From Thermococcus sp. JdFR-02 (GTDB taxonomy: Archaea > Methanobacteriota_B > Thermococci > Thermococcales > Thermococcaceae), in contig MTLP01000031.1 of NCBI GenBank assembly GCA_002009975.1, forward strand, positions 62,001 through 126,000: DNA of 64,000 bases. The letters are read 5' to 3'. Numbering within the stretch: the stretch's first letter is position 1; each line of letters begins with the position of its first letter. The position numbers were made by a program, and so were the translations under genes. The notes under the pieces were generated by a model, which made no database searches, had not been told where the DNA came from, and saw only the letters and a list, made by a program, of their open reading frames with translations. This document shows, piece by piece, positions 28,959 to 39,997 of this stretch.

Positions 28959-29777
28959 CTAATCCTTAATAAATTCTAACCCTAATTCTTCCGCAAGTAA
29001 CTTAGCGAGTTGTTTTGTATCCCCTCTACTTCCCTTCCAATCAACATAAATTGCTTCAACTTCTGTATCAGTCCTTTTTATAGCCTTTAAAAGCATTTCC
29101 TTTGAAAGAGGATGAGCATATTTAGCCGCTATATGTCCAAATGCCAAATCACTGTCAAAGGCTATCTTAGTTTGCTTTGGTGCATAATGTCCACCACCAA
29201 TTCCAATAACTGATTTGTATCTCGCTTTCTCATAATTCTCTAAAACGTAAGTAATGGTTTCTGCCAATATCTCACCAGCTCTATCATTAACCCACTCTTC
29301 CTTACTACTTCCAATCTCTACGAACAGTGAGGGCACATCAATCTCACTGGGACCATGATGTGTCGCTTCATAACAAACAGTCCATCCTAGATCATTTAGT
29401 TCATTCAGCTTTAATAGGGCTAATTTCATTGCATTTGGTTGAGCTATTGCCAAACTTTGATCTTTACCACCATACATAGCATTTTTCCAATTGCCAGTTA
29501 TGTGAGTAGTTAATGCTGGCATTTTTGCTTGGCTTGAATGTCTCGAAGCAAAAATTATAATCTCAGGAATAATTCCAAGTTGCTTCTTGATTTCTTTATC
29601 AAGATAATCATAGTATATCATCTCATCGTTTGTAGTTAAAAGGAGAATGTCCCTTCTTCTATAGACTGGATTGCCATCAAAGGCTAAATCGCTCTCTTTA
29701 AATCCAAAGTTCTTCACAAGTTTCTCCTTAATGTTCATTGATGCTAAATCAATTTTCGTTGTCATTATAACCTTCAC
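28959..29777 (-). CDS. dtdA: D-aminoacyl-tRNA deacylase, archaeal/plant type (DtdA)
   Basis: About 272 residues of the GEK1/DtdA family, which hydrolyses D-aminoacyl-tRNA to keep D-amino acids out of protein synthesis. Recognisable blocks are [19 protein letters not shown] near residue 78, [20 protein letters not shown] near 147 and [13 protein letters not shown] near 195, with His residues that bind metal. The start is a GTG at 29777, spaced correctly from GGAGGTG; the GTG two codons earlier overlaps the site. Confidence 0.95.
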
Positions 29778-30145
29778 TTTCACACCTCCAAGAGATAGCC
29801 AAGGTTCATCGTTAAAAGACTTTTGTATAACCTTGAGAATTTTGTAGTAAGTTCAATTTTAAAATATGCTTTACATATAGCAAGTTTTGATAAAGTTGTG
29901 AATCAACTGAATTCATAGGTGTTTAGCAAATTTTTAGAAAGAATAATCTAAATATGTAAAAATTTTTCATTATATTGAATTTCAAACTTGAATTTTGTCA
30001 TGTTTTACAACCGTGTAAACGCAAAATATATAATATCATGAATGTTCACTAATTCTGTGGCATACTCTACAATGAGCTTAAATATACAGCAGCGTCCTAA
30101 ATTGTTAGGGTGTTCAAAATAAGGCATTGGCGGAGGGGTTTAAAA
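29778..30145. other. Divergent intergenic region, dtdA to kamA-like gene
   Basis: About 370 A/T-rich bases. CAAGGTT at 29800-29806 and AACCTTG at 29829-29835 form a dyad that encloses the probable dtdA TATA (CTTTTAACG). The kamA-like promoter elements lie at 30076-30109. No coding frame was seen. Confidence 0.5.
30076..30109 (+). promoter_or_regulatory. TATA box and CCTAA-N4-TTAGG dyad of the kamA-like gene
   Basis: GCTTAAATATA at 30076-30086 is a likely TATA box. A perfect dyad, CCTAA (30096-30100), ATTG, TTAGG (30105-30109), lies where transcription should start, a typical position for a repressor site. Confidence 0.4.
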
Positions 30146-32059
30146 ATGGAAAAACAAATGGAAAGTGCTGTTTCGACTTTCGATATAGAAGCCTCCCCAT
30201 GGGGGTTAAAACAAGGAATTAAACATGAAGAATTTTTAAGAATATTTGACCCGCTACCTCAGCTTAAAGAGATTTTAATAAAAAGTGAAAGTTTAGATGA
30301 AGCAAGAGAAAAGCTTGTTGAATTTTGTAAAGAATTAGAATGGAAAGTAAAGAGCGGAGAAATTGAGCTTGATGCTATGGATAGATGGCTCTCATTAGAG
30401 GCTATCAAAGTGTTTACAAACATGATATCACCCTATGGTGAAAAAGCTGCTGGCTTTAGCACACTCGAATATCTCTGGAAAGCTACAAAAGGAGATAAAA
30501 GAGTTCTCGGGATAATAACTGATGGGTTTATTGAAGAATTTAAGCATTTATTTTTAGCTATGTCAGGAAAAGCAGGATATTCAAAGGGATGGCTTGGACT
30601 AAGATTAGAAAAGGAAGGAGTCCAATTTGTCGATTTCAGCAAAATTAAAGGAAGAAAAGCAGCGTTAGCAAGATCGGAGTATCTTGACAAGGTTTGGCAA
30701 CACATAAAGAAATGGATAGAGAGATATCCAAGCGGTTTAGATAAACGGATCATTGAAAAGAGAAAGAAACAAAGAGAGCAGCTAATGGAATATTTCGGCA
30801 TAACAGAGGACGAGTGGTTTGACTATAGATGGCAGTTCTCTCATGTCTTGAAGAGAGAAAAAGGCGTTGAAATTCTTAAGGAGCTCAACGAACTTGGAAT
30901 AGTGAAGATACCCGAGGAGGATATAAAACAAGCAGAAATAGCTGTAAAATACGGCATACCTTGGGGAATAACTCCATACTACCTAAATCTCTTTGATTTC
31001 AAAAACCCATATAAAGAGGATCTACATGTAAGGAGACAAGTTATGCCACCAGTTTGGTATGTAAAAAACATGCTTCAGCACAAAGAGGATAGGGAATATT
31101 ACTTTGATTTCATGGGTGAACACGATACTTCACCAATTGATCTCGTCACGAGGAGATATGTCACGATAGCAATTCTCAAAGCTTATGACACATGCCCACA
31201 AATATGTGTCTACTGTCAAAGAAATTGGGAGGTTCTCGAGCCATTCATGGCTGGTTCATTCCCCGGATGGGAGACAATTGAAAAGGCATTAGAATGGTTT
31301 GCAGAACATGAATCAATGCTTGATGTGCTCATAACTGGTGGAGATCCACTAGCGTTAAGTGATAAGATAATTGACAAGATCATGAGCAGATTATCAGAGA
31401 TGGATCATGTTGTTAACATAAGATGGGGAAGTAGAATTTTCGTTACAGTGCCAATGAGAATTACAAACGAGCTTGCCGAAATTTTGGGAAGCTATATAGA
31501 GCCAGGAAAAAGAAATGTTTCGATTTCAACTCACGTTGAAACAGCTTATGAAGTAACTCCCGAAATGGCTGAAGCGGCGTATAAAGTAAGAAGACAAGGA
31601 ATTTACATCTATAATCAACTTGTTTACCAAAGGAATGTTAGCAGAAGGTTCGAAAACGTTGCACTGAGAATAGCGCTTAGAAAGGTTGGTATTGATCCAT
31701 ACTACACATTCTATCCAAAGGGCAAGATTGAGCAGAAAGACTACCTCGTGCCAATAGCGAGAGTTGTGCAGGAGAGAAAAGAGGAAGCTAGACTCTTACC
31801 TGGACAGTTTAGACCTGATGAACCAGTATTTAATGTGCCTAGAATGGGTAAGAACCACTTGAGAGCATGGCAAGATAGAGAATTAGTAGGCATCAGACCA
31901 GACGGAAGTAGGATATACTTAATGCATCCCTGGGAAAAGGGAATAAGCCAGACAAAGCTTTACACTTATCCCGATGTTCCAATTAAGGAGTATCTTGACT
32001 ACTTAGAAAGCATTGGTGAAAACAAAGAAGACTATGAAACTATCTGGTATTATTACTGA
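30146..32059 (+). CDS. KamA-family radical SAM aminomutase-like protein
   Basis: About 637 residues, larger than bacterial lysine 2,3-aminomutase (about 420). The extra length is an N-terminal helical region of roughly 250 residues. The radical SAM motif is CPQICVYC (Cys350, 354, 357), and LITGGDPLALSDKIIDKI near residue 395 is typical of the KamA family. Relatives move an alpha-amino group to the beta carbon (lysine or glutamate 2,3-aminomutases) or have unknown functions. The substrate is not assigned here. The start at 30146 has GGAGGGG; the upstream frame from 30110 lacks a site. Confidence 0.85.
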   Translation: MEKQMESAVSTFDIEASPWGLKQGIKHEEFLRIFDPLPQLKEILIKSESLDEAREKLVEFCKELEWKVKSGEIELDAMDRWLSLEAIKVFTNMISPYGEKAAGFSTLEYLWKATKGDKRVLGIITDGFIEEFKHLFLAMSGKAGYSKGWLGLRLEKEGVQFVDFSKIKGRKAALARSEYLDKVWQHIKKWIERYPSGLDKRIIEKRKKQREQLMEYFGITEDEWFDYRWQFSHVLKREKGVEILKELNELGIVKIPEEDIKQAEIAVKYGIPWGITPYYLNLFDFKNPYKEDLHVRRQVMPPVWYVKNMLQHKEDREYYFDFMGEHDTSPIDLVTRRYVTIAILKAYDTCPQICVYCQRNWEVLEPFMAGSFPGWETIEKALEWFAEHESMLDVLITGGDPLALSDKIIDKIMSRLSEMDHVVNIRWGSRIFVTVPMRITNELAEILGSYIEPGKRNVSISTHVETAYEVTPEMAEAAYKVRRQGIYIYNQLVYQRNVSRRFENVALRIALRKVGIDPYYTFYPKGKIEQKDYLVPIARVVQERKEEARLLPGQFRPDEPVFNVPRMGKNHLRAWQDRELVGIRPDGSRIYLMHPWEKGISQTKLYTYPDVPIKEYLDYLESIGENKEDYETIWYYY

Positions 32060-32061
32060 TC

Positions 32062-32073
32062 TTTCTTTTATTT
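32062..32073 (+). terminator. T-rich terminator after the kamA-like gene
   Basis: TTTCTTTTATTT begins three bases past the stop codon, consistent with archaeal intrinsic termination and separating this gene from the TRAP operon. Confidence 0.35.
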
Positions 32074-32104
32074 ACTGGTATGTAAATCTTTCAAAGAAAC
32101 AAAA

Positions 32105-32156
32105 AGGTAATAATACCTAACTTACAAACATTTAAGGTATTGCGGGGCATTGCCCC
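32105..32156 (+). promoter_or_regulatory. Dyad and G+C hairpin ahead of the TRAP transporter operon
   Basis: AGGTA-ATAA-TACCT (32105-32118) is a perfect dyad, and GGGGC-ATT-GCCCC (32144-32156) a perfect short hairpin. Both lie within 80 bases upstream of the start codon. They could be an operator and a leader hairpin. A TATA-like CATTTAAG lies between them. Confidence 0.4.
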
Positions 32157-32182
32157 ACTTCCATATTTAGAGGTGGTAAGAA

Positions 32183-33208
32183 ATGAAGAAATGGAAAACT
32201 TTGGGTTTGGTTTTTGTTTTGGTATTGGGTTTAGTTGCGGCTGGATGTACCCAGAAAGAAACTGCTACACAAACAACTCAAAGCATACCAACAACCGAAG
32301 AAGGGAAATATGAGATTACAATCTATACCGGTTCAGGACCTGGAAGTGTTTATTTCGCAATTGGTTCAATGTTTGCCAAGGTTTTGAACAAAAAGAGTGA
32401 GAATATCGCTGCAAAGGGTGTTACAAGTGGTGCAAGTGTATCCAATGCAAAGGCTATTGGAAAGGGTGAAGCCCAAGTAGCCATTATACAAAACGACGTG
32501 ACTTATTATGCTTGGAATGGGCTGTATCAATTCGAAGGCAATCCAATTAAGGAGCTAAGAGGAATTGGGACTCTTTACCCTGAACCAGTTCAGATCGTCG
32601 TTAGAGCTGATAGTGGCATTAAGACTCTTGAAGACCTAAAAGGTAAGAAAGTTGTAGTTGGCGCTCCAGGAAGTGGTGTTGCAGCTACTGCTGAGAGAGT
32701 TTTAAAGGCAGCAGGACTATGGGACCAAGTTGAAAAGATCTATCAAACATTTGAAGAAGCTGCTCAAAGCTTAGTACTTGGACAAGTAGATGCAGAATTT
32801 ACTGTTATCGCATATCCAGCCCCAGCAATTGATCAAATAGCAGTTAAAACACCAGTTCGTTTGATTCCAATCCCAGACGAACTCATAAAGAAACTACATG
32901 ATGAGGGATATCCATTCTATGTTAAAGTTGTTATTCCAAAGGGTACCTACAACGGAATGGATGAAGATGTCCAAACAATTGCAGTTAAAGCAACATTAGT
33001 AGTTGACAAAGATGTGCCAGATGACGTTGTTTATGAATTAACAAAAATCTTCTTTGAAAACACTGACGAACTTGCAAAAGCACACCAAGTGGCTAAACAA
33101 ATAGATGTTAAAAAGGCATTTGAAGGATTAATGATCCCACTACATCCAGGGGCAATAAAATATTACGAAGAACAAGGAATAACAGTCCCTGATGAACTTA
33201 AGCCTTGA
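32183..33208 (+). CDS. TAXI-family TRAP transporter solute-binding lipoprotein
   Basis: A 341-residue binding protein. The signal peptide ends in a lipobox, LVAAGC, with Cys22 as lipidation site, followed by a Thr/Gln linker. The TAXI hallmark TGSGPGSVYFAIGSMFAKVL starts near residue 54, and a further family block is KKVVVGAPGSGVAATAERVL near 160. TAXI proteins bind carboxylates such as glutamate or 2-oxoglutarate where tested. It delivers its ligand to the fused permease encoded downstream. GAGGTGG precedes the start. Confidence 0.94.
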   Translation: MKKWKTLGLVFVLVLGLVAAGCTQKETATQTTQSIPTTEEGKYEITIYTGSGPGSVYFAIGSMFAKVLNKKSENIAAKGVTSGASVSNAKAIGKGEAQVAIIQNDVTYYAWNGLYQFEGNPIKELRGIGTLYPEPVQIVVRADSGIKTLEDLKGKKVVVGAPGSGVAATAERVLKAAGLWDQVEKIYQTFEEAAQSLVLGQVDAEFTVIAYPAPAIDQIAVKTPVRLIPIPDELIKKLHDEGYPFYVKVVIPKGTYNGMDEDVQTIAVKATLVVDKDVPDDVVYELTKIFFENTDELAKAHQVAKQIDVKKAFEGLMIPLHPGAIKYYEEQGITVPDELKP

Positions 33209-33221
33209 AGGGGTGGATTTT

Positions 33222-33674
33222 TTGAAAAAATATTTTCTTTTTTTCCCATTAGCTTTTTTGCTTCTTACACTTTTTCCCATAACTGCTTTAGAGATAGAAT
33301 TTAATAAAAATGTGTGTTACTTTCCTCTAAGCTCAAATCCTACTCTTATAATCTCTTATACTCATAGTGTTTCTCTCACTAAAGTTGTAGACATATATCG
33401 AATTAACGGAACTGGTATATATGCAATACAAGAAAAATGGCAAGAGTTTATGGCCGGACAACCATTAGATGTTCAATACACCGAAGGACAATTTTACGTT
33501 AAGGACATGAACATGTACCTAGGAAAATCCTGGGAGTACTGGTTTATTCCATTAAATAACGTTACGGTAAAGATCAGCGATAAGATTGTTTTCACCCAGC
33601 TAAAAGAGGAGGGAATTATGAAATTTAAAGTCAAAAAAGTACCTTTTGTATTTTCCATAATTAGGAGGTGTTGA
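33222..33674 (+). CDS. DUF1850 protein of the TAXI-TRAP operon
   Basis: About 150 residues. An N-terminal hydrophobic segment (KKYFLFFPLAFLLLTLFP) suggests a signal or anchor, followed by a beta-rich domain with SYTHSVSLTKVVDIYRI, the DUF1850 pattern. These proteins regularly lie between TAXI binding protein and fused TRAP permease, but their role is unknown. The start is taken as TTG at 33222 because GGGGTGG lies 6 bases upstream. An ATG at 33192 would overlap the previous gene by 17 bases and lacks a site. Confidence 0.85.
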   Translation: MKKYFLFFPLAFLLLTLFPITALEIEFNKNVCYFPLSSNPTLIISYTHSVSLTKVVDIYRINGTGIYAIQEKWQEFMAGQPLDVQYTEGQFYVKDMNMYLGKSWEYWFIPLNNVTVKISDKIVFTQLKEEGIMKFKVKKVPFVFSIIRRC

Positions 33675-33676
33675 AA

Positions 33677-35974
33677 ATGAGCGAAAAGATTGAAAAGAAG
33701 ATAATTCTAGAGAAAACGAGAACCTTATCTCCAAAGCTTGAAACCATAGTTAAGATAGCAGCAGTTTTAATTGGAATTTATGAAATCTTATTTATATTCA
33801 ACTTTACTTATTCAATCTACGATCTCTTTGAAAAAGTTGGATTAAAATGGACATTCTTACGACTTGATTTCCAAGATAAGCAAGGAGAAGCATTTGTCTT
33901 AGCAATGATTCTGTTAATAGCATATCTCCGATATCCTATACTGAAAAAAAAGAAATATCTCAAAAAAGTACCTTTCTATGATTATATCCTAATTGTTTTA
34001 AGCTTGGCTACCATGTTCTACATGTTCTGGAGATTTCCAACGTACATGATATACTACGATGTAAATCAATACGATGTAATTTTTGGACTTTTAGCAATAG
34101 CTCTTGTACTAGAAGCAACAAGAAGAACACTTGGATGGATTTTGCCCGCAATAGTCACCGTGTTTTTAATCTATGGAATAAGAGATACTGGATTTAACTG
34201 GCAACGCTTTGTGCAGTATCTCTACCTCGATCAGGGTATATTTGGAATTCCCTTTTATGTCATGACAATCTATGTTTTCGCCTTTGTGTTCTTTGGAGCA
34301 TTCTTGTTAAAAATTGGAGTGAGTGATTATATAACAGAATTTATGATAACACTCTTTGGTCCTCGTTCTGGAGGACCAGCAAAGTCTGCAGTTGTTTCAA
34401 GTGGACTTATGGGTACTGTAAGTGGAAGTTCAGTAGCCAATGTTTTAACAACCGGAACTTTTACAATTCCTCTAATGAAGAAAGCGGGATATCCACCGGA
34501 AATTGCAGGAGCTGTTGAACCAGTTGCTTCGACAGGAGGACAGCTAATGCCTCCAATCATGGGTGCTGCTGCATTTATTATGGCACAATTCTTAGGAGTG
34601 CCTTATAACAAACTGATAATTGCAGCAGTATTGCCAGCTCTAATCTACTATTCAGGTGTTTACCTCTTTATCGATCTCGAAACTAAACGTTTGGGATTAA
34701 AAGGAATGCCAAGGGAATACTTTACACCATTAAAGTATTTCATCAGAAAGCTCTACATTCTACTGCCAATAGTGGTCATAACCGTGGCTTTAGTGTGGGG
34801 AATTGCTCCTCATATAGCGGCAATATCTTCATTAGGAATAGCAATCTGGGTGGCGTGGATATCAAAAGATGAAATACCAGGACATGAACAACTATATGTC
34901 GGTGTTGTACTCCTTACTTTACTTCTCATGTTCAGTGGAGAAAATGTTGCAAAATATGCCGCAATAACCCTTACCCTGATAGCAACCGCGCTGATAATAT
35001 TGGCGTTTACATCCAAACATGTTGAAATGAATGAAAAGTTTTACATAAGCTTGCTGTTCATAATTTTCATTGCTTTCGCAAAATTCTTGGGCATAAGAAA
35101 AGAATCAATTCTATTAATGACTGGGGTCTTTGGAATAGTGTTTTCATTAATAGTCGGTCGTCTTTCTAAGAGTGAAGAAGGGAAGACAATGTACAGTGCA
35201 ACTTATACATCGATGATTGATGCTGGAAAAACGAGTACGAGCGTTATGCTCGCAGCTGCAAGTGCAGGTCTAATCCAAGGAGTTCTTACTATGACTGGAT
35301 TAGTTACAAGTTTAGGCTACAGATTAGTGGATCTCGCTGGAGGAAATCTGCTACTACTCTTAATGATGGCAATGGTATTCAGCCTTATACTTGGAATGGG
35401 TGTTCCAACAACAGCTAACTACGTTATAACATCTCTCGTTGCTGCACCTGCAGTATTTAACGCTGTGGCTAATGTGGGGATGTATGGACAACCAGTTCCT
35501 GGATATGGAACCCCAATAGCACTTCTCGCAGCACACTTCTTTGTGTTCTACTTTGGAATCCTTGCTGATTTAACTCCTCCTGTAGCCCTAGCAGCATATG
35601 CAGGTTCAGCTCTAGCTGGAGGAGACTTCTGGAAAACAGCGAGAAATTCTGTTAAATATGCTTTAGCAGGATACATTGGTCCATACATATATTTCCACCA
35701 CCCAGAAATGTTTTTAATCACAGTAACCTCATGGAATTTAATGACAGCGCTTAGAATACTCTACTACTTCCTAGCAACAATAATGATCATGTACCTCTTT
35801 GCAATTGCAATAACCGGATACCTCAATAAGACCTTAAGAAAAGAAATCAGAATAGCTTTGGGAGCATTAGGCTTTGCAGGTGCAACGTTACATATAATTC
35901 CAGTAACCTTAGGAGTATTAGCATTAGTGGGCTTAAAGATATATACAAAGAAGGCACAAAAAGTTAGTTCTTAG
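33677..35974 (+). CDS. TRAP transporter fused permease (DctQ-DctM type, TAXI-associated)
   Basis: About 765 residues with some 18-20 membrane helices. The N-terminal part is the small DctQ-like module, and the rest the large DctM-like module. Conserved TRAP segments are GPRSGGPAKSAVVSSGLMG near residue 230, GQLMPPIMGAAAFIMAQFLG near 285 and LGMGVPTTANYVITSLVAAP near 575. Transport is driven by an ion gradient, commonly Na+. GGAGGTG precedes the ATG at 33677. It is the last gene of the three-gene operon. Confidence 0.95.
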   Translation: MSEKIEKKIILEKTRTLSPKLETIVKIAAVLIGIYEILFIFNFTYSIYDLFEKVGLKWTFLRLDFQDKQGEAFVLAMILLIAYLRYPILKKKKYLKKVPFYDYILIVLSLATMFYMFWRFPTYMIYYDVNQYDVIFGLLAIALVLEATRRTLGWILPAIVTVFLIYGIRDTGFNWQRFVQYLYLDQGIFGIPFYVMTIYVFAFVFFGAFLLKIGVSDYITEFMITLFGPRSGGPAKSAVVSSGLMGTVSGSSVANVLTTGTFTIPLMKKAGYPPEIAGAVEPVASTGGQLMPPIMGAAAFIMAQFLGVPYNKLIIAAVLPALIYYSGVYLFIDLETKRLGLKGMPREYFTPLKYFIRKLYILLPIVVITVALVWGIAPHIAAISSLGIAIWVAWISKDEIPGHEQLYVGVVLLTLLLMFSGENVAKYAAITLTLIATALIILAFTSKHVEMNEKFYISLLFIIFIAFAKFLGIRKESILLMTGVFGIVFSLIVGRLSKSEEGKTMYSATYTSMIDAGKTSTSVMLAAASAGLIQGVLTMTGLVTSLGYRLVDLAGGNLLLLLMMAMVFSLILGMGVPTTANYVITSLVAAPAVFNAVANVGMYGQPVPGYGTPIALLAAHFFVFYFGILADLTPPVALAAYAGSALAGGDFWKTARNSVKYALAGYIGPYIYFHHPEMFLITVTSWNLMTALRILYYFLATIMIMYLFAIAITGYLNKTLRKEIRIALGALGFAGATLHIIPVTLGVLALVGLKIYTKKAQKVSS

Positions 35975-35977
35975 CTA

Positions 35978-35987
35978 TTTTCTTTTT
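35978..35987 (+). terminator. T-rich terminator of the TRAP operon
   Basis: TTTTCTTTTT starts four bases past the permease stop codon. Confidence 0.4.
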
Positions 35988-36002
35988 ATCATTTATAAAA
36001 GC

Positions 36003-36833
36003 TCAGACACATCTTACACATTTTTCATAATCTTCCTTGCTTAACCTCCATCCCATTGCCCCAAAGTTTTCTTCTAAGTGTTTTCTGTTGTTTGCCTTTG
36101 GTATTGCTATTACATTTTCTTTCCAAATCAACCAGTTCAAGGCTACTTGTGCAGATGTCTTGTTGTATTTCTTCCCAATTTCGGCTAAGCATTTATTCTT
36201 AGCAAGTCTTCCCTTTTCTAAAGGAGTGTAAGCAATTAAAGCAATCCTTTCTTTTTCCATATAAGGCAAAAGCTCCTTTTCTACCCACCTATCCCTAAGG
36301 CTATACTTAACCTCATTGGCAACGACCTCATACCTCTTCATAACGCTCTGGGCTTCTTGTAAAAGGGAGAGATTGAAATTACTCACGCCTATATAGCGGA
36401 TTAAACCCTCATCCACAAGTTCTTCCATTGCTCTCATAGTCTCACTTAAAGGCACGTCTGGATTGGGCCAATGTAAAAGATAGAGATCAATGTAAGTGTT
36501 GAGCCTTTTTACACTATTCTTGGCGGCTTTTAGAACATCCTTATACCTAAAGTGGCTTGGCCAAACTTTACTTATAATAAAGATACTTTCCCTTTCATAT
36601 TCTTTAATCGCTTTTCCAACTATCTCCTCACTATGTCCAGCACCATAAAACTCTGCCGTGTCGATTAAATTGATTCCTAATTCCAATCCATATCTTAAAG
36701 CTTCAATACTTTCATTATCGTTTGAGTAGTCCGGAGTTTCATAACCTCCAATACCCCATGTACCCATCCCAATTGCCGTTACTTTATCTTCACCAATAAC
36801 TTTGAGATCTTTAAAAACATTAACTCCCTTCAT
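36003..36833 (-). CDS. Aldo/keto reductase
   Basis: A 276-residue AKR with the (alpha/beta)8 pattern. The catalytic tetrad is visible: Asp and Tyr in NLIDTAEFYGAGHSEE near residue 55, Lys in IFIISKVWPSH near 80 and His in DLYLLHWPNPD near 110. The C-terminal SAQVALNWLIWKENVIAIPK block binds NADPH. The substrate is unknown. The start at 36833 follows AGGTGA, while the GTG at 36842 overlaps the site. A perfect 17-base dyad lies in its promoter. Confidence 0.92.
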   Translation of the reverse strand: MKGVNVFKDLKVIGEDKVTAIGMGTWGIGGYETPDYSNDNESIEALRYGLELGINLIDTAEFYGAGHSEEIVGKAIKEYERESIFIISKVWPSHFRYKDVLKAAKNSVKRLNTYIDLYLLHWPNPDVPLSETMRAMEELVDEGLIRYIGVSNFNLSLLQEAQSVMKRYEVVANEVKYSLRDRWVEKELLPYMEKERIALIAYTPLEKGRLAKNKCLAEIGKKYNKTSAQVALNWLIWKENVIAIPKANNRKHLEENFGAMGWRLSKEDYEKCVRCV

Positions 36834-38739: not shown

Positions 38740-38794
38740 CGCGACCACAAGATTAATTATAGTCTTGCTTGCTTTTAATCTTTAGGTGAAAGCA

Positions 38795-39997
38795 ATGAAA
38801 ATAGGAGTTGTCTTCGGAATAAGTGAATTGGCAAATCCAAAATATTTTGAAAAGAAGGCTTCAAAGTTTTTGACAGACTTAGCTGGAGAGTTTGAAATAA
38901 AGGGTGGACTCTTTGTTTCTTCAAAAGAAGAAACGAGACAAGAGGAACTTGACTTTCATGATGTGGATGCCATAGTCTTATATCCTCTCACAGGAGGAAC
39001 AGAAAATCCACTGAAAGAATTTGCCTACTTCAGAAAGCCAGTAATCCTTTTTGGTGATTCTTACAACAATTCAATAGCTGCTGCAATTGAGCTTAGAGAG
39101 TATTTTAGAGAAAAACTAATTCCATCAACATTAGTTAAAACTTATGAAGAGCTTAAAGCCGCTTTACTTGGATATGAAGACATGAAAGAGATATTGGAGA
39201 AGTTTCTAAAATTAAGGCTTGGATTAATTGGGAGGGTTTCTCCTTGGTTAATTAACGAGGATTTTGAACTTCCTTACATTCATATAAGCCTAAAGAAGTT
39301 TTATGAATACTACAATAGAATAACAGATGCCGAAGGTTATAGAGCAGTTGAGAAGATAATAGGGAAAGCTAAGAACATTGTAGAGCCAAAAAGGGATGAT
39401 TTGATAAAAGCTGGAAGGATTTATTTAGCCATAAGACAGATAATTGAAGATTATAAGCTTGACGGCTTTACAATCGGTTGTTTTGATCTAATTGGAAAGA
39501 TAAAGGCAACACCTTGCTTAGCTTTAGCAATGTTTAATGCTGAAGGAATTCCCGCTGCTTGTGAAGGAGAGCTTAATTCCCTATTGGGCATGACCATAAT
39601 TAGAAGATTCTTTGATAAACCCGCATTCATGGGGAATATAGCTGATTATGGTGAAGATTACATCATTTTAGCTCACTGTACAGCTCCACTAATAGCAAAT
39701 TACAATCTAAGAAGCCACTTTGAGAGTGGAATGGGAGTTGGTGTTGAAGTTTTCCTACCAAAGGAAAAAGCATCATTGTTAAAAATCAAGGGAAGAAAAG
39801 CTGTTGTTGCTGGAGTTGAAGTTAAAGAAAGAGAGAGAAATGAGCAGAGATGCAGAACACAGCTTAAGCTTAAAGTTGAAGAAGCAAAAGACTTCATCGA
39901 TGGAACCCTTGGAAATCATCACCTTTTAGCTTACGTGGATAGTGAAGAGTTAGCAGATTTGCTAAGTGAGCTTGGCTTTGAAGTTATGCTCTATTGA
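38795..39997 (+). CDS. L-fucose/L-arabinose isomerase-fold protein of unknown substrate
   Basis: About 400 residues. An N-terminal Rossmann-like region, with VLYPLTGGTENPLKEFAY near residue 60, and the later blocks GFTIGCFDLIGKIKATPCLA and NAEGIPAACEGELNSLLGM near residues 230-270 match the fucose isomerase-like fold; the Glu of ACEGE would be a metal ligand. It is shorter than true L-fucose isomerase (about 590), so the substrate is open. AGGTGA precedes the ATG at 38795. It is divergent from the PIN gene with a 55-base shared promoter region. Confidence 0.78.
   Translation: MKIGVVFGISELANPKYFEKKASKFLTDLAGEFEIKGGLFVSSKEETRQEELDFHDVDAIVLYPLTGGTENPLKEFAYFRKPVILFGDSYNNSIAAAIELREYFREKLIPSTLVKTYEELKAALLGYEDMKEILEKFLKLRLGLIGRVSPWLINEDFELPYIHISLKKFYEYYNRITDAEGYRAVEKIIGKAKNIVEPKRDDLIKAGRIYLAIRQIIEDYKLDGFTIGCFDLIGKIKATPCLALAMFNAEGIPAACEGELNSLLGMTIIRRFFDKPAFMGNIADYGEDYIILAHCTAPLIANYNLRSHFESGMGVGVEVFLPKEKASLLKIKGRKAVVAGVEVKERERNEQRCRTQLKLKVEEAKDFIDGTLGNHHLLAYVDSEELADLLSELGFEVMLY

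Follow-up and report, generated by a model that had tools for sequence, protein, structure and literature searches.

The closest described relatives of the enzyme studied here are lysine 2,3-aminomutase (LAM; AblA/KamA, structure 2a5h, model TIGR03820) and glutamate 2,3-aminomutase (GAM; eam, model TIGR04368). We take Asp293 and Asp330 of LAM to bind the lysine side chain, and the GAM of C. difficile presumably has Lys and Asn at these two positions, residues reportedly described by Ruzicka and Frey in 2007. Among the genes associated with Na+ riboswitches, eam is named as giving beta-glutamate in the available excerpt of one paper (PMC9337991), and the excerpted parts of another (PMC11574862) give TAXI as the sole TRAP type in archaea and provide the VcGluP ligand residues that define the binding pocket in our comparison. 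The stretch analysed here, referred to as the window, is 64,000 nucleotides of Thermococcus sp. JdFR-02 (contig MTLP01000031.1, positions 62,001 to 126,000), in which a long KamA-family gene lies directly upstream of a TAXI-TRAP importer. We consider it probable, though by no means certain, that this KamA protein is a GAM-type enzyme interconverting L-glutamate and beta-glutamate, and that it forms a unit with an importer for a glutamate-like amino acid. The observations behind this reading are the predicted fold, the residues at the substrate positions, gene linkage, co-inheritance and a promoter element common to the two genes.

The enzyme gene and the elements within it are given below, with residue numbers of the 637-residue form unless the 649-residue form is stated.

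30146 to 32059, plus strand: long KamA-family radical S-adenosylmethionine (SAM)/pyridoxal phosphate (PLP) aminomutase, 637 amino acids (TIGR00238 match, conserved ATG, alignment, model).
30206 to 30793, plus strand: N-terminal helical domain, residues 21-216, nearly all outside the KamA family model (standalone model, 9 invariant residues).
31193 to 31216, plus strand: CxxxCxxC iron-sulphur motif, C350, C354 and C357 (invariant).
31718 to 31720, plus strand: Lys525, aligned with LAM Asp293 (invariant, alignment).
31832 to 31834, plus strand: Asn563, aligned with LAM Asp330 (invariant, alignment).
31850 to 31852, plus strand: Lys569, likely the PLP lysine (invariant; PLP role from the alignment).

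The original prediction of a large KamA-like radical SAM protein was borne out by the KamA family model TIGR00238, which matched residues 224-580 of the 649-residue form with 387 bits (cut-off 199.2), and a whole-genome search gave no second KamA-family match. The locus stands as predicted, but its proposed start at 30076 is slightly upstream of the actual gene. The reading frame is open from GTG 30110, which would give the 649-residue form, to 32059, and translation likely starts at ATG 30146, which has ggaggggt just 5' of it and is kept across an alignment of 14 upstream regions. The hallmarks of the family, the cysteines C350/C354/C357 and Lys569, presumably the equivalent of LAM Lys337, are all invariant in the long-row alignments. 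The AlphaFold model had a mean pLDDT of 91.5 and a pTM of 0.90, and its residues 207-600 matched 2a5h with Z 41.4 (337 residues aligned, root-mean-square deviation 1.9; next entry Z 14.3), in agreement with Foldseek (E 2.9e-19).

The protein resembles LAM in predicted fold, CxxxCxxC motif and PLP-lysine region, but it differs from LAM in that both lysine-binding Asp positions are replaced, in its score (141 bits against 525) and in the lack of ablB. In a phmmer alignment to 2a5h, LAM residue 293 lies opposite Lys537 of the 649-residue form, i.e., Lys525. In a joint alignment, LAM 'YYLYQCD' is opposite 'YYTFYPK' and LAM 'DAPGGGGK' is opposite 'NVPRMGK', the second site being anchored by a vioD-adjacent protein annotated as lysine 2,3-aminomutase, which has 'DVPMAGK' with an equal loop length. 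All 73 family rows, 72 of them distinct, have Lys525 and Asn563, so that the GAM-type pair is present and the LAM trait, Asp at both positions, is absent from all of them. The acetyltransferase AblB (TIGR03827), which defines the abl (acetyl-beta-lysine) operon, gave no match at E <= 0.001 anywhere in the genome, which extends the earlier remark that ablB is missing from the neighbourhood, and the curated LAM cut-off (525.4 bits) was not reached (140.7). A lysine aminomutase serving acetyl-beta-lysine was rejected because the Asp pair is replaced and ablB was not found. Judged from these residues, the substrate is likely glutamate, not lysine.

The preference of the curated models was probed with single substitutions in a real LAM (L137). 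With TIGR04368, Asp to Lys at the first site raised the score from 465.6 to 468.3 bits (+2.7; controls Ala 465.6, 0.0, and Arg 466.8, +1.2), and Asp to Asn at the second site raised it to 468.5 bits (+2.9; controls Ala 464.9, -0.7, and Lys 465.2, -0.4). With TIGR03820 the score fell from 738.6 to 735.2 (Lys, first site) and 735.9 (Asn, second site), drops of 3.4 and 2.7. These shifts indicate that the GAM model favours Lys and Asn, a preference read from a curated model rather than a curated GAM sequence, with bit differences of the size that one column can yield. The same pair is thus what KamA has in common with GAM; moreover, the TIGR04368 match begins at model position 3 and covers the N-terminal segment preceding the LAM start. 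KamA differs from GAM in about 180 further N-terminal residues and in a match that stops at model position 331 of 404. The window protein reached 192.5 bits for GAM, 140.7 for LAM and 128.3 for the arginine model, each far under its cut-off; a distant long member also scored higher with GAM (243.7 vs 211.1 bits for LAM), whereas LAM scored higher in eight of nine shorter paralogues, the ninth favouring GAM by 0.3 bit (221.8 vs 221.5). The search for a curated GAM covered 151 genomes of the phylum Chloroflexota and two plasmid-collection records, none of which passed the TIGR04368 cut-off; the plasmid collection yielded LAM-like, arginine-type and Bacteroidota relatives.

The long form constitutes a subfamily of its own that is strongly conserved and exceeds the 331 positions of the KamA family model. 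Scanning of contigs with the window protein gave 48 distinct loci, in 44 of which the match spans from residue 43 or earlier to residue 634 or later; their record titles include Thermococcus, Methanocaldococcus, Atribacteria, Chloroflexi/Anaerolineae, Pyrodictiaceae and Desulfurococcales. When 73 long sequences were aligned (72 of them distinct from residue 61 onward), 102 positions did not vary; the set of 46 rows under 90% identity had 105 invariant positions, of which the N-terminal part contributes nine. The class to which a Methanocaldococcus genome belongs gave long-form alignments at 20 places in 19 of 36 genomes (46-69% identity); the other matches listed there comprised short KamA proteins, one fragment of 29 residues and a single weak match. 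Two Methanocaldococcus proteins (L029, L030) are 66-67% identical to the window KamA over nearly the full length and belong to the same subfamily, as do other long archaeal KamA proteins such as MJ0634.

The long helical N-terminus had been described as going beyond known lysine aminomutases, and this was upheld. Modelled alone, the domain has 196 residues and 11 helices (pLDDT 87, pTM 0.66), and no confident match was obtained in the PDB (Foldseek best E 0.27; VIA-align best Z 5.0, under the level that the tool's own note deems meaningful for helical models). A missing fold match is no proof of a new fold. Pfam and NCBIfam gave no assignment for the N-terminal part, save the GAM-model match beginning at residue 182 of the 649-residue form. 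At a Methanomethylicota-titled locus (L061:7896-9742), the N-terminal domain (an open reading frame (ORF) of 145 amino acids) and the rest of the enzyme are encoded by overlapping ORFs in different frames, either a natural split or a frameshift. An N-terminal extension was also seen in a KamA-family protein of about 715 amino acids from Bacteroides finegoldii (L150:1943-4084), with Lys and Asn at both substrate positions, and the glutamate-type pair may thus reach Bacteroidota. Two records filed as plasmids (L148, L149; 2.1 and 2.6 Mb) resemble whole chromosomes.

Downstream of KamA and on the same strand lie the importer genes, and the original prediction of KamA directly upstream of a TAXI-TRAP importer was correct.

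32183 to 33208, plus strand: TAXI-family TRAP solute-binding protein with a lipobox-like VAAGC near the N-terminus (TIGR02122).
33192 to 33674, plus strand: DUF1850 protein (PF08905).
33668 to 35974, plus strand: fused TRAP permease (TIGR02123).

The binding protein (342 bits, cut-off 84.35) and the fused permease (554 bits, cut-off 320.65) both cleared their models, which makes the locus a TAXI-TRAP transporter, and the DUF1850 protein scored 32.7 bits (cut-off 27). The closest homologues, with the same gene order, are in records titled Thermococcus. Within Thermococcales the subfamily gene occurs in 23 of 94 genomes at 24 places, and at 18 of these it is of type 1 (82-100% identity) and is followed by a same-strand TAXI gene, with 122-169 bp from match end to match start. 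An unlinked distribution of the two loci, which the original prediction had named as evidence against itself, was looked for, and a TAXI neighbour was found downstream of type 1 KamA in 18 of 18 genomes. The genomes whose best TAXI protein is at least 76% identical to that of the window are the same 18. Neighbour counts from simple ORF picking understate this linkage, as in L012/L025 an antisense ORF overlies the binding-protein gene.

We read the loci of 13 of the 17 other type 1 genomes and of 16 of the 56 genomes with TAXI but no KamA beside it. Whether or not KamA is present, the TAXI locus adjoins dtd and ftsZ; where KamA occurs, it sits between dtd and the binding protein. Identity to the window separated the two groups fully for the binding protein (type 1 76.2-83.1% vs others 54.0-60.9%) and for DUF1850 (50.3-69.7% vs 31.9-44.0%) and with slight overlap for the permease (73.5-80.9% vs 65.4-75.0%), whereas the identities of dtd, ftsZ and L11 overlapped. 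A flank tree of dtd, ftsZ and L11 was built from 27 genomes, 14 with KamA (including the window) and 13 without; G019, G024 and G033 were outside it, dtd, ftsZ and L11 being absent from the stretch read. On this tree, whose deep branches are weak, the KamA state changes at least five times (careful tree) or six times (quick tree), and a single clade of KamA-bearing genomes was rejected on it (p-AU 1.6e-83). For these 27 genomes the binding-protein tree and the permease tree each show only one change. The flanks of G083 group with G085 (98/100), while its cassette groups with those of KamA-bearing genomes. We read this as transfer of the cassette into one locus, that is, a mobile unit of KamA and importer. 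For type 1 Thermococcales, a single functional unit of importer and enzyme is the most likely reading.

The two genes also have similar upstream elements.

30004 to 30032, plus strand: KamA promoter, with an inverted repeat TTTAC-N6-GTAAA at 30004-30019 and a TATA box at 30027-30032 (upstream alignment).
32071 to 32086, plus strand: second TTTAC-N6-GTAAA copy, in the gap before the binding-protein gene (pattern search).

Upstream of KamA the exact repeat was found in 11 of 14 genomes and a looser pattern in 13, and the distance from repeat start to TATA box start was 23 bp in all 13. Upstream of the binding protein of the same 14 genomes the exact repeat was found in six and the looser pattern in 13, with a spacing of 36 bp in the 12 genomes that also show TATATA. 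Genomes without KamA at this place had the exact repeat before the binding protein in 7 of 16 cases and a TTTAC-N4-GTAAA form in 5 of 16; the rate over all fetched stretches, these promoters included, was 0.0116 per 200 bp. The window has two copies where 0.10 are expected, a number reached in one of 100 shuffles, but this count is no independent test by itself, since the alignment was seen before the pattern was picked and the genomes share ancestry; a search tolerating one mismatch gave an unremarkable eight matches (4.17 expected, eight being reached by 6 of 100 shuffles). KamA and the binding protein thus seem to have separate promoters with a common operator-like element. A wider regulon was dismissed: the exact repeat occurs at eight places genome-wide, fewer than the reversed control (15), and the other six sites (flanks inspected at all six, ORFs at three) have no evidently related genes. 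No Rfam match exceeded its gathering score in 29500-36200.

All 14 KamA-linked and all 16 other Thermococcales TAXI proteins examined retain the equivalents of VcGluP Tyr45, Ser75, Gln93, Glu125 and Gly156. The window protein shares them with VcGluP and TtGluBP but differs from both at the Tyr200, Met201, Asp157 and Gly203 positions, in being archaeal and in being tied to an aminomutase gene. Asp157 is replaced by Ala in KamA-linked and other Thermococcales proteins alike, while the two groups differ at Tyr200 (Thr in KamA-linked vs Ile in others) and at Gly203 (Ala vs Gly). A specificity switch in the KamA-linked protein was nevertheless rejected: 45 of 341 positions are group-fixed, and the pocket share of 2/13 is the expected proportion and no enrichment over the columns aligned to TtGluBP (43/287). 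The TAXI protein of one Atribacteria-titled contig from a metagenome-assembled genome (L034) has a mean identity of 71.5% to the KamA-linked type and 53.9% to the other, and it carries the KamA-linked letter at 36 of the 45 group-fixed positions, as compared to 6-12 in five other Atribacterota-linked proteins, which are about 30-36% identical. The KamA beside the L034 protein groups with Atribacterota KamA proteins.

The idea of joint import and conversion accordingly fared well in part. Coupling agrees with gene order, co-inheritance and the promoter element, a glutamate-type substrate agrees with the active-site residues and the TAXI pocket, and lysine, with both Asp replaced, does not fit. 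In the scheme that we infer for substrate, product and direction, the amino acid would be captured extracellularly by the TAXI lipoprotein and then brought in through the fused permease. Glutamate would form an aldimine with the PLP on Lys569, and SAM cleavage at the CxxxCxxC cluster would set off the radical migration by which the amino group passes from C2 to C3, with Lys525 and Asn563 gripping the side-chain carboxylate where LAM grips the side-chain amino group of lysine. A use of beta-glutamate as a compatible solute is likewise conjectural.

Several findings weigh against the GAM-type reading and the unit with the importer. The score of 192.5 bits misses the curated GAM cut-off of 650 bits, and because of this the protein was not filed under TIGR04368. 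Type 2 KamA (77-78% identity, 6 of 24 places) has no TAXI neighbour. Of the 74 Thermococcales genomes that have TAXI, 56 lack an adjoining KamA, their best TAXI matches being 53-63% identical; four of the 56 (G026, G029, G039, G041) hold type 2 KamA elsewhere. Separate promoters do not imply a single transcript. Tyr45 and Gln93 are only weakly specific for a glutamate-type protein, since the key Tyr and Gln are common across TAXI proteins (78% and 54%, in the excerpt of PMC11574862). In five of six Atribacterota KamA-linked TAXI proteins, Met replaces Gln93 and Ala replaces Glu125, and their ligand may therefore lack an alpha-amino group. As far as the available part of a 2005 review goes (PMC1224877), early nuclear magnetic resonance work excluded that beta-glutamate originates from a glutamate aminomutase, a coenzyme A route was proposed from M. 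jannaschii activities, and the methanogen route is incompletely identified. M. jannaschii itself has a TIGR00238 match.

Outside Thermococcales 40 loci were found, 33 of them with at least 900 bp after KamA. TAXI was nearby in seven (six Atribacteria-titled, directly downstream, and one divergent in Desulfurococcales) and a Liv-type ABC binding protein in five, so many KamA relatives had no importer seen alongside. The Atribacterota locus L038 reads RpiR-type regulator, KamA, TAXI, DUF1850, permease, GntR-type regulator and 2-oxoacid ferredoxin oxidoreductase; the alpha component of the last clears the cut-off of the general 2-oxoacid model, and the beta component scores best with the 2-oxoglutarate model, below its cut-off (340 vs 364). 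A Chloroflexota locus (L040) has an IclR-type regulator, KamA, a C45 acyltransferase, an FGE-sulfatase-domain protein and a Liv-type ABC transporter. In DHVE2 (L028) a pyruvate/2-oxoisovalerate-type ferredoxin oxidoreductase precedes KamA and an isocitrate/homoisocitrate-type dehydrogenase follows it. The Pyrodictiaceae locus L050 has an HMGL-type, (homo)citrate-synthase-like synthase gene, an aconitase-family pair and an isocitrate/homoisocitrate-type dehydrogenase. These neighbourhoods accord with glutamate or 2-aminoadipate metabolism, and none proves either.

The rival that survives best, although we rate it as clearly the less probable account, is scavenging: TAXI would import beta-glutamate shed by neighbours such as methanogens, and the enzyme would convert it to L-glutamate for catabolism through 2-oxoglutarate and a ferredoxin oxidoreductase. 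It is favoured by the patchy and mobile cassette, by the ferredoxin oxidoreductase genes a few genes past KamA at Atribacterota loci, by the IclR regulator and Liv-type importer flanking the Chloroflexota gene, by the loss of the Gln and Glu that bind the alpha-amino group in those five Atribacterota proteins, and by the two differing pocket positions, near the side-chain end, in Thermococcales TAXI proteins with and without KamA. On the other hand, the alpha-amino contacts are kept in KamA-linked Thermococcales TAXI proteins, the pocket changes are not enriched, and the Methanocaldococcus loci (L029, L030, L032) differ from that of the window in having the enzyme and no TAXI in the stretches read around it. 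It is improbable that the substrate is another free amino acid, such as lysine, 2-aminoadipate, aspartate or arginine. Curated KamA relatives do act on several amino acids, and the Pyrodictiaceae genes adjoining KamA (HMGL-synthase, HacA-type and homoisocitrate-type) may be homocitrate-type, could make 2-oxoadipate and would point to 2-aminoadipate or lysine, a further point against glutamate; the LAM aspartates are replaced, however, ablB was not found, and two arginine-type relatives have Asp and Thr at the two positions. A role in modifying a macromolecule, comparable to that of EpmB on EF-P, in which the helical N-terminus would serve for docking, is very improbable: the large conserved domain without a confident fold match and the adjoining dtd (D-aminoacyl-tRNA deacylase) in Thermococcales speak for it, but the enzyme is co-inherited with the importer and the dtd side is also found in genomes without KamA there.

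Some observations were made beside these. Type 2 loci (L156, L157, L158, L159) have flavin and Fer2/Fer4-type oxidoreductase genes upstream, and a DAO-family gene, which resembles dye-linked proline dehydrogenase, was upstream in three of the four and not among the ORFs picked at L158. What appeared to be an amino-acid kinase downstream of type 2 KamA proved to be UMP kinase, seen in L156, L158 and L159. In the window, 38786-39997 encodes a 403-amino-acid protein with no Pfam match and weak NCBIfam matches (sulfoquinovose and arabinose isomerase models); other Thermococcales genomes have its homologues near their TAXI locus.

From titles and abstracts of the CC-licensed literature, no published account of the cassette or the long subfamily could be recognised. 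On the GAM-type reading, a broader but doubtful proposal is that long KamA forms beta-glutamate in hyperthermophilic archaea and several anaerobic bacteria, and that in Thermococcales and Atribacterota its gene moves together with a TAXI importer adapted to beta-glutamate. If this were true, heterotrophs that share vents and sediments with autotrophs would take up and reuse the beta-glutamate that the autotrophs make. The subfamily also brings a conserved domain, some 200 residues long, for which no structural match was confident, and the cassette gives a predicted ligand class for an archaeal TAXI importer. A widespread subfamily with the glutamate-type pair, Methanocaldococcus included, makes the methanogen route to beta-glutamate testable by one enzyme assay.

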